A stretch of 64,000 nucleotides of DNA from Streptomyces sp. DT2A-34 (GTDB lineage Bacteria; Actinomycetota; Actinomycetes; Streptomycetales; Streptomycetaceae). The notes under the pieces are model-generated. The model did not search any database. It was given only the letters and a program-made list of their open reading frames with translations, and was not told the origin of the DNA. The position numbers and the translations under genes are program-made. Below are positions 14,119 through 38,576 of the stretch, piece after piece. The DNA is taken from NCBI RefSeq assembly GCF_030499515.1, contig NZ_JASTWJ010000001.1:4258001-4322000 (forward strand), in the 5' to 3' direction. Every line of letters begins with the position of its first letter. The first letter of the stretch is position 1.

Positions 14119-14574
14119 TCACCGGGACCGGCAGCACTCCTGGGCCACCGAGACGAAGGCCAGCTTCGCCTGTTTCAGTTCGTCCGGCCTCTCATGGCGT
14201 CGCAGACAGTCGACGAGGTGCTGTGCCGCCGCGGCAGCGTCGGACGGGCCTTCCAGGAGCACCCCGCCCAAGGCACGTTGCAGCAGGACGTCGTCGTCGC
14301 CCCGCCCCCGCCCGTTGCGTTCGGCGAGGATCCTGGCCTCTGCGGCCCCGAGGAACTCCGCGTAGGTCTGGCGGCGGAGGGCGAACTCGCGGTGGCCGGC
14401 CTCGGCGCGGAGCGTCATGCGAACCGACTCGAGCAGCGCGTCCGCCTGACGGTCGCCCGCGTGGCGTGCCGCAGCGGCCTGCCGGATGCCGGCACTGCGG
14501 GTGTACCAGCCGGTCACAACACTGCCCGCGATCGCCGATCCCGCGGCGATCAGCGCGATTCCCCAGTCACTCAT
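14119..14574 (-). CDS. Small membrane-anchored protein of module 1, function unknown
   Basis: A 151-residue protein with one N-terminal membrane helix (WGIALIAAGSAIAGSVVTGWY) followed by a soluble helical, charged domain (LLESVRMTLRAEAGHREFALRRQTYAEFLGAAEARIL to DELKQAKLAFVSVAQECCRSR). I recognise no domain. The ATG at 14574 fits the membrane helix; the longer upstream frame is a shadow. It is divergent from the GT-like gene at 14680 with 105 bases between them, the place occupied in module 2 by the small amyloid-motif protein. By position it may be the module's membrane-acting partner, but that is inference. Confidence 0.7.
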   Translation of the reverse strand: MSDWGIALIAAGSAIAGSVVTGWYTRSAGIRQAAAARHAGDRQADALLESVRMTLRAEAGHREFALRRQTYAEFLGAAEARILAERNGRGRGDDDVLLQRALGGVLLEGPSDAAAAAQHLVDCLRRHERPDELKQAKLAFVSVAQECCRSR

Positions 14575-14679
14575 GCCGCCATCCTCGCGACCAGCCACGA
14601 CATGCCACACCACCCTTGCCCGATGTGCGGCGTGGATCACTCTCGGCGACCTCCGAACGGCGCGCGATAGGATCGGATC

Positions 14680-36505: not shown

Positions 36506-38576
36506 CGTGGTAGTGGGCGTTCTCGCCCGCGAGCGCGTCGATCGCCTCGTCGATCAGCGGCAGCGCCTCTGACTGCCGCCCGGCGCGCCTGTACGTGTCC
36601 GCCAGATCGGTGAGCGTACGGGCGGTGTTGTAGGGCTCCTTCTCGCGGAAGAACCCGAGAGCCTCCACCAGCAACTCCTCGGCCTCGTCCAGGAGATGGA
36701 GACCGTTCAGCGCGCGCCCTCGGTGACGCTTCAGAAGGGCACGGGCACGGGGCTTGTCACTGTAGCCGTCGTCTTCGGGACCGACACGTTGCCAGATGCC
36801 GTCCGCCTCGACGAACAGGTCGTGGGCATCCGGGAATCCCCACTGCCCCAGCCGTACAAGGCCCAGCGTCTCGATGGCGGTGGCCAGACCGCGCTGGTGC
36901 CCCGCCTGCCGCTCGGCCGCCGCAGCCGCCTCCGCCTGGATCTTGGCCTCGTCGAACTGTCGCGACTCGATCAGGGCCATTGCCTGCAGGGTGTGCATGC
37001 GTCCCGCCATCCGGGTGCCGGGACAGATGTCGTCAGCGACCTTCGTGCCCACCCGAAGCGCCGGAAGGATCTCTTCGTGGCGGCCGTCCTTGAGCTGCAA
37101 GGCCCACAGGGCCTCGCACAGCTGACACGCGGTGTCGCCGAGACGGTACTCCTCAGCAGCGAACACCGCCTGAACGAGATTGCCCAGCTCGTTGCCGAGG
37201 GCGGCGATAGCATCGCCCTTGGACGCGTAAGGGCCAGGAGGCAGCACTGTGAACAGGGGGCCCACGTGCCAGCGTTCCGGCAGGGCGGCGCGGTCGGCCT
37301 GCACAGCGAACGGCAACAGCGACTCGACCGCGCGCGCCACGGCCCTGGAGCAGGCGGGGATGCCGTCCTCGCGTACGGCGGCCTGCTCGGCGTGCCGACG
37401 TACTGCGGGACGGAAGCGGTAGCGGCCGGTGCCGGTCTCCTCAACCAGCCCCTTTTCTGCGAATTCAGTGAGCAGACGGGCGGCCTCGGCTTCCTCGACC
37501 TCGGCCATGGTCCCTGCCACGGTCGGGCTGAGCGCCGGCCACGGCCACAGTGCCGAAAGCCGGTACAGCCGGGCGGCGGTCGGCCCGAGCGTGCGGTACT
37601 GCTCCTGCGCGGCGGCGTAGGCGGGCTCGTTCCCGGGCATGGTGGGGATGCCTTCCTCTCCCAGTCGCGCTTCGAGCAGCGACGCGAACGTCCTCAACGC
37701 GTACGGAGATCCGCCGCATTGGTCGAGCACCTGCGGCAGTATGGCGCGGGCGCGGGCTTCCTGAACGGTCCGCTTGCCCGCGACTTCGGTGAGCAACTCG
37801 ACGGCGTACCTCTCGGGCAGTGGCACCACCTCGATCGGTTCGGCGTCCGCCTGAGGAAGACGGCGGTGGGCGACGATGATGGTGAAGACTTCTGGCGCCG
37901 AGGTGAGCAGAGGCGTCACCTGCGCGGCTGTCTGGACGTGGTCGAGAACAATGAGCAGCCGCCGGTCCGCGACAAGCCGACGGAAGAGATCCATCCGCTC
38001 CTCCAGACCCGGCGGGATGTCCTCCGAGTCCAGTCCGAGGCTGCGCAGGGCTTGTCGGAGAGCCATGGCAGGGTCCGGCACCCGGGCCAGGTCTACGTAC
38101 AGTTGCCCGTCCGGATACCGCTGCAGCTCGCGCCATCCCCATCGCAGAGCGAGGGATGTGCCGCCCATCCCCTCAGGCCCGTACAGATGAACCCTTCGAG
38201 CACGTCCGTCGAATTTGCGGGACGCCTCGCGCGTAAGCCGCCGCATCTGCTTGTCGCGATCAACGAAGCCCCGGAGGCCGTCGGGCAGTTGCGGAGAAGT
38301 GCGGATGCGCACCTGGGCCAACGCCCTGCTGACCACCGCTTCCACCTCGGCCAGCCCCCGTGCGTGCTCCGGACTGCGCAACGCTCCCTCGTACAACAGC
38401 CGGGCCAGTCCCTCCCATTCGGCGGGCCGCTCGGGGGCCGGAACCTCCCGCCCCGCGATCCGACGTGCCAACCCGCCGATCATCAGGTACGCGTTCTTAC
38501 CCGCCTCGTTGCCCATCCCCGCACCCACGGTCCCCAGCATTGCCGTAACCGTCGCCAGCGATATGAGTTCCAGCAT
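36444..38576 (-). CDS. STAND-like ATPase with fused N-terminal helical domain and degenerate P-loop (NLR 3)
   Basis: A 710-residue protein from ATG 38576 (GGGGAAG upstream). Residues 1-90 (LISLATVTAMLGTVGAGMGNEAGKN, LARLLYEGALRSPEHARGLAEVEAVV) form a helical domain resembling the separate small protein of module 2. The ATPase core follows: PDGLRGFVDRDKQMRRL, P-loop-like YGPEGMGGTSLAL (residues 132-143, with Gly where the Walker Lys should be), RRLLIVLDHVQTAAQVTPLL, TIIVAHRRLP, CGGSPYALRTFASLLEARL, winged helix, then TPR-like repeats (TLQAMALIESRQFDEAKIQAEAA, TLTDLADTYRRAGRQSEALPLIDEAI). Loss of the Lys suggests weak or absent ATP hydrolysis. It converges on GT-like gene 3. Confidence 0.83.
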   Translation of the reverse strand: MLELISLATVTAMLGTVGAGMGNEAGKNAYLMIGGLARRIAGREVPAPERPAEWEGLARLLYEGALRSPEHARGLAEVEAVVSRALAQVRIRTSPQLPDGLRGFVDRDKQMRRLTREASRKFDGRARRVHLYGPEGMGGTSLALRWGWRELQRYPDGQLYVDLARVPDPAMALRQALRSLGLDSEDIPPGLEERMDLFRRLVADRRLLIVLDHVQTAAQVTPLLTSAPEVFTIIVAHRRLPQADAEPIEVVPLPERYAVELLTEVAGKRTVQEARARAILPQVLDQCGGSPYALRTFASLLEARLGEEGIPTMPGNEPAYAAAQEQYRTLGPTAARLYRLSALWPWPALSPTVAGTMAEVEEAEAARLLTEFAEKGLVEETGTGRYRFRPAVRRHAEQAAVREDGIPACSRAVARAVESLLPFAVQADRAALPERWHVGPLFTVLPPGPYASKGDAIAALGNELGNLVQAVFAAEEYRLGDTACQLCEALWALQLKDGRHEEILPALRVGTKVADDICPGTRMAGRMHTLQAMALIESRQFDEAKIQAEAAAAAERQAGHQRGLATAIETLGLVRLGQWGFPDAHDLFVEADGIWQRVGPEDDGYSDKPRARALLKRHRGRALNGLHLLDEAEELLVEALGFFREKEPYNTARTLTDLADTYRRAGRQSEALPLIDEAIDALAGENAHYHVNHLRALRDRCVSAGRGLPE

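Follow-up and report, generated by a model that had tools for sequence, protein, structure and literature searches.

Most of what is known about contingency genes switched by repeats comes from host-adapted bacteria with small genomes. The gene for NeuO, the polysialate O-acetyltransferase of Escherichia coli K1, holds a heptanucleotide array of 2 to 93 copies that switches the enzyme on or off through the reading frame, and three units encode one heptapeptide in a part of the protein that is disordered (PMC3046976). The phage growth limitation (Pgl) system of Streptomyces coelicolor shows repeat-driven phase variation of phage resistance (PMC6625227), and STAND systems of multicellular bacteria that are diversified by diversity-generating retroelements (DGRs) are proposed immune sensors subject to programmed hypermutation (PMC10907252). 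Here, we consider a 64,000-nucleotide stretch of Streptomyces sp. DT2A-34 (contig NZ_JASTWJ010000001.1, positions 4,258,001 to 4,322,000; the window below), in which three paralogous genes for a TagF-like enzyme, each with a perfect 7-bp array, are each paired tail to tail with a gene for a STAND protein (Table 1). The pair, its co-inheritance, the concentration of arrays in one partner, and the existence of ON and OFF alleles, including within one species, are all evident from the sequences. Phase variation of one member of a co-inherited pair is thus strongly supported by sequence comparison, and we consider it close to certain that a phase-variable enzyme is part of a co-inherited enzyme-STAND pair.

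Like the NeuO gene, the enzyme genes considered here, whose products are probably glycan-modifying as well, have a heptanucleotide array inside them. However, NeuO is a left-handed beta-helix acyltransferase that is prophage borne and has its array right after the start codon, and its description in PMC3046976 names no STAND partner. Repeat-driven phase variation in Streptomyces is shared with Pgl, which is a different system with a polyG tract; PADLOC, applied to the six proteins that the three pairs encode, returned no pgl or brx (Pgl/BREX) match. The DGR systems likewise tie programmed hypermutation to the STAND proteins of multicellular bacteria (PMC10907252), but there a reverse transcriptase mutates a C-type lectin domain that is part of the STAND protein, whereas here a length-variable array lies in a separate partner enzyme. 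The STAND partners resemble AVAST (Avs) proteins and other bacterial NLRs (as described in PMC10907252) in joining an NB-ARC-type NTPase to C-terminal tetratricopeptide repeats (TPRs); they differ in that no N-terminal effector domain was found in the 61 that were scanned and in that an enzyme partner lies next to the STAND gene at nearly all loci.

The original prediction, made from the letters of the window, had described three plus-strand paralogues with perfect 7-bp arrays, each meeting a STAND gene tail to tail with abutting or overlapping 3' ends. All of these elements are present, with pair 1 abutting and pairs 2 and 3 overlapping. The gene models need one amendment: genes 1 and 2 are each a single frame, but gene 3 is split in two at its array, the frame from its start at 34689 ending at 35222 and the C-terminal part continuing in another frame (35189-36505), so that gene 3 reads OFF in this assembly. 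The array lies near the N terminus in gene 1 and after the HGxG motif in genes 2 and 3. Gene 2 is 94% identical to its closest named homologue, also from Streptomyces. A fourth member of the family lies in the same 10.3-Mb genome, some 148 kb downstream of gene 3; its array is found shortly before the matched part, and it too has a convergent STAND neighbor.

How widespread is this arrangement? A protein search returned 353 homologues, of which 120 were listed. HGxG occurs in 93 of these 120, and 53 of the 93 carry a 7- or 8-residue repeat that begins, in every case, 5 to 35 residues past the motif. Some of the 27 listed proteins without HGxG are contig-edge fragments, and most begin shortly behind the place of the array, as expected if, where the array puts the gene out of frame, annotators chose a start behind it. 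Most of the listed homologues are annotated as hypothetical proteins; some bear the misleading name translation initiation factor 2 (P0011, P0032, and P0043 are called translation initiation factor in a public source), and P0075 (1,011 residues) and P0083 (938 residues) are family proteins fused to Pfam glycosyltransferase domains that keep their heptapeptide repeats. With a profile (A1) built from 38 proteins, the family was found in 71 of 150 genomes of the genus, own genome included (E ≤ 1e-10), and in 27 of 296 genomes across the class, representing 10 of 114 genera (E ≤ 1e-15); 17 of these 27 lie outside the genus, a few of them being weak partial matches.

We placed 127 enzyme loci from 124 sources (the window, 13 contigs, and 110 stretches chosen by homology searches), which the tree divides into clades A (58 loci), B1 (19), B2 (15), C (30), and D (4), with one locus unassigned. 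The original prediction would have been refuted had arrays or adjacent NLR genes proved rare among homologues. Arrays of at least three copies are instead present at 49 of 58 clade A, 18 of 19 clade B1, and all 15 clade B2 loci (one of these 15, a 3-copy array lying far upstream in L142, is doubtful), and at none of the 34 loci of clades C and D. A convergent STAND open reading frame (ORF) accompanies 112 of the 123 evaluable loci; the median gap behind the matched part is 28 to 78 bp for clades A and B and about 555 bp for clade C. Elsewhere, the STAND gene lies upstream in tandem on the same strand at the four clade D loci (L106, L111, L113, and L118, none with an array), downstream on the same strand at two loci (in pieces at one), and convergent at a greater distance at two; it was not found at 3 of the 123. 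Of 30 loci outside the genus, two of them fragments from a single genome, 17 were counted by eye as having an array of 7- or 8-bp units and 24 as having a convergent STAND gene within about 1.1 kb.

The two partners also travel together in descent. The distance matrices of the enzyme and STAND trees correlate with r = 0.857 over 110 pairs, and at 0.81 to 0.96 within clades; STAND partners fall into the same clades as their enzymes, with no swapping of partners between clades. A search with STAND protein 2 gave 16 closest relatives at 46% identity or more, at least 6 of which lie on a contig equal in size to that of a listed enzyme match; the next relatives, at 33% or less, are mostly AfsR/SARP-like. 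Among clade A and B loci, the array is kept at 81 of 86 with an adjacent STAND gene and at 0 of 4 without one, a tally that includes two decisions by hand.

Arrays occupy three clade-dependent sites. In clade A, they encode a loop that follows HGxGYNK, some 9 residues beyond the HG motif; in an AlphaFold2 model of a clade A enzyme, residues 124 to 150 have low confidence, and the model is otherwise confident (predicted local distance difference test score, 88). In clade B2, a conserved TANNAT-N6/7-ATG start, from which we infer initiation of the leaderless type, is followed by about 28 codons and then the array, in the coding N terminus; the promoter-like TAGGAT 6 bp ahead of the ATG of gene 1 likewise suggests a leaderless start for that gene. 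In clade B1, the array, of up to 53 and 92 copies, stands between a conserved TTGC-N17-TA block and a likely ribosome site and start codon, and thus probably in the 5' leader.

What hardly varies at the clade A site is the unit length. Runs of at least three copies there comprise 49 of unit 7, one of unit 8, one of unit 10, and two of unit 6; the two 6-bp runs are short (18 to 19 bases), and one sits at the end of a 7-bp array. The unit sequence varies: the 43 clade A arrays of at least four copies contain 16 different units, which supports the proposal in the original prediction that selection is for hypermutability rather than for a sequence. At L154, L107, L231, L232, L233, L246, and L251, 8-bp units replace 7-bp ones, and these again are no multiple of 3. 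Because neither 7 nor 8 shares a factor with 3, the same heptapeptide or octapeptide is read from a pure array in every frame, and the switch would act behind the array. In a scan for arrays of at least five copies with units of 4 to 12 bp, the enzyme genes, taken with 720 bases upstream (299,955 bases), held 71 arrays: 68 of unit 7, 2 of unit 8, and 1 of unit 9, the last in the clade-unassigned locus. Flanking DNA (1,232,926 bases) held 8, of which 3 had unit 7, one of these lying in the window (at 43353-43477) and one in a stretch fetched for its array match; the concentration in the enzyme genes exceeds what chance would give. No unit-7 array of at least five copies was found in 400 kb of evenly spaced DNA of the own genome, and none in the 110 STAND ORFs (253,680 bases), which held one array of unit 6.

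In the assemblies compared, array length is not fixed between close strains; fixed lengths would have refuted the original prediction. Streptomyces anthocyanicus NBC_01372 and NBC_01668 share a single 12.9-kb alignment at 99.05% identity with 9.6 and 17.6 copies, respectively; the difference of 8 repeats leaves one allele in frame and the other out, and the annotated coding sequences measure 1,770 versus 1,311 bases, the shorter beginning behind the array. In Streptomyces coelicoflavus, NBC_00099 (7.9 copies) and NBC_00357 (7.7) are out of frame and the related SYP-A7193 (9.6) is in frame, the three being 95 to 96% alike at the locus. Copy numbers differ between close species as well; examples are 13.3 against 4.4 copies at roughly 93% identity and 9.1 against 5.4 copies at roughly 94%. 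Overall, 18 of 45 clade A loci are out of frame, including 14 of the 30 with at least 6 copies. The ratio of nonsynonymous to synonymous substitution rates, taken over seven pairs of which three include an OFF allele, is 0.15 to 0.40 for the enzyme part behind the array and 0.21 to 0.43 for the STAND gene; thus, these OFF copies are not evolving like pseudogenes.

The enzymes have a GT-B, TagF-like fold. Against the PF04464 profile (CDP-glycerol glycerophosphotransferase, TagF/TarL), genes 1 and 3 score 14.6 bits versus a cut-off of 22.1, and gene 2 gives no match. These subthreshold scores set them apart from TagF/TarL proper, as do the array loop, the STAND partner, and an extra C-terminal domain with no clear PDB match. 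HG and HP motifs are constant across the clades in a motif-level comparison, and entry titles name H444 and H548 as catalytic-site histidines of TagF; near-constant motifs of a catalytic type speak against a pure decoy. A Pfam scan of 61 of the 110 extracted partner STAND proteins found NB-ARC in 41 and TPR_12 in 55 (E ≤ 0.001). Among the Pfam matches of these 61 there was no fused effector domain, a domain not yet described being still possible, and no DNA-binding domain, including the N-terminal SARP domain that distinguishes AfsR/SARP regulators from them; the AfsR model matched a partner in the NB-ARC/TPR part only, far below its cut-off.

Taken together, these observations lead us to favor, tentatively and with somewhat more doubt than belief, a model in which the pair is a bet-hedged anti-phage module, in which the predicted sensor is the STAND protein and the predicted output is the array-switched enzyme. 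Slipped-strand changes in the array would flip enzyme expression within a clone, the copy number setting the enzyme in or out of frame; in clade B1, with the array apparently placed in the 5' leader, the level of expression would be tuned instead of the frame. In ON cells, the enzyme would probably add a sugar or a polyol-phosphate to a glycopolymer of the cell envelope or the cytoplasm, and the STAND partner, for which the Pfam scan gave no effector domain, would sense infection and act through the enzyme. A random OFF state would save many cells the cost of this output. The immune role, the substrate, and the direction of signaling are our inferences.

Several observations weigh against this model. 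Mirror trees are partly expected from shared descent, and the association of array with partner depends on 4 loci. Both S. anthocyanicus strains, in which the locus is on plasmids, have a decayed STAND gene, yet their array lengths differ; arrays can thus go on changing in length once the partner is lost, and these plasmids are an exception to any strict rule tying array to partner. Because clades C and D retain both genes with no array, hypermutability is not needed for the action of the pair. ON states occur in 16 of the 30 clade A arrays of at least 6 copies versus the one-third expected of random phase (one-sided P = 0.019), so the states are not purely random. Among the 20 clade A loci with a split frame, a stop interrupts a matched piece at one (L022); two others (L071 and L075), not split at a long array, look decayed, as do family genes L145 and L147. 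PADLOC gave no match for the enzymes of the three pairs and weak ones for their STAND proteins. Finally, the nearest named relatives of the STAND partners beyond their own orthologues are AfsR/SARP-type regulators, such that the partner could be a regulator and not an immune sensor.

This last point leads directly to a phase-variable surface glycopolymer enzyme of the NeuO/lic kind, whose switching would alter the envelope and hence the phage receptor, with the STAND protein as the enzyme's regulator. The TagF-like fold, the fusions to glycosyltransferase domains, and the AfsR-type relatives all fit, and repeat-driven switching is typical of surface-glycan enzymes such as NeuO (PMC3046976). 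Yet no DNA-binding domain was found in the 61 scanned partners, and no polymer gene cluster was seen to recur beside the pair. Moreover, a STAND partner is not known to be part of phase-variable surface-glycan loci; we regard this account as a real, if unlikely, contender. Could the enzyme or its product instead be a variable self-marker guarded by the STAND protein in kin recognition or allorecognition, much as the original prediction had it? Several paralogous pairs per genome (four enzyme loci here), the absence of partner swapping between clades, and variation between close strains would suit such a role. But a mere marker needs no catalytic-type motifs constant across clades, copy number alters just a predicted disordered loop, the frame, or the leader, and there is no sign here of contact-dependent behavior, which makes guarding of a marker improbable in our estimation.

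Tight linkage and convergent overlap would also be natural in a toxin-antitoxin pair with the array silencing the toxin; in S. anthocyanicus NBC_01372, however, the enzyme gene is in frame and its STAND neighbor decayed, and another in-frame copy (L059) has no STAND neighbor at all, which renders this very unlikely. Least credible of all is that the arrays are neutral expansions or assembly errors. Five draft contigs do end inside an array, but arrays are present in single-contig assemblies too, and their enrichment in one gene family at three conserved sites, their clade-specific absence, and the near-exclusive use of 7- and 8-bp units at the site speak against this reading, which the enrichment already contradicts.

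A broader formulation, which we think unlikely, is that these loci represent a novel class of system for immunity or recognition in filamentous actinomycetes, one built on programmed variation: an NLR-type sensor would be paired with an enzyme whose expression a 7- or 8-bp array randomizes from cell to cell, and one genome could have up to several such pairs in parallel. If it were true, a clonal mycelium would be a mosaic of self- or defense states that dedicated NLRs read, the bacterial counterpart of combinatorial self-marking. The family would link phase variation to NLR biology and could explain, in a way open to testing, why phage sensitivity may vary among Streptomyces colonies; natural ON/OFF allele pairs are available for direct tests. 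This is a large contingency-type family in free-living multicellular actinomycetes, with hypermutability at three places of one gene and, so far, always in the same partner of the enzyme-STAND pair.

Table 1. The three enzyme-STAND pairs and their arrays (positions in the window)
Feature	Position	Strand	Remarks
TagF-like GT-B gene 1	14680..16512	+	Clade B2; single frame from ATG 14680, ON in this assembly
Array of gene 1	14765..14835	+	ACGGGCG x10.1, 100% perfect; N-terminal coding
STAND partner 1	16513..18549	-	NB-ARC + TPR; convergent, abuts gene 1 exactly
TagF-like GT-B gene 2	30358..32121	+	Clade A; in frame (ON)
Array of gene 2	30720..30822	+	GAGCCGG x14.7, 100% perfect; just after HGAGYNK, loop predicted disordered
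STAND partner 2	32098..34254	-	Convergent, 24-bp overlap with gene 2
TagF-like GT-B gene 3	34689..36505	+	Clade A; frames 34689-35222 and 35189-36505
Array of gene 3	35063..35158	+	CCGGAGA x13.7, 100% perfect; after HGVGYNK
STAND partner 3	36444..38621	-	Convergent, 62-bp overlap with gene 3

The window also contains candidate defense genes, whose bearing on the role of the pair is circumstantial. Between pairs 1 and 2, a large DUF4011/AAA/MTES_1575 protein (23738-28750) matches PADLOC PDC-S37 at 1177 bits and adjoins a phage-type integrase (21827-23719), and the region may be an integrated element; an ATPase_2/DUF234 protein (44757-46181) matches PDC-S27. The flanking array of the window mentioned above (CTGACCT x17.9, perfect, and the longest there) lies behind a gene at 41772-43226 with no enzyme or STAND gene adjoining and is possibly a relic. 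Other solitary 7-bp arrays away from family genes occur in the own genome (L148:7286-7331, 6.6 copies), in another genome (L165:7768-7836, 9.9 copies), and on a plasmid (L194:5999-6087, 12.7 copies), the first two of which look intergenic.
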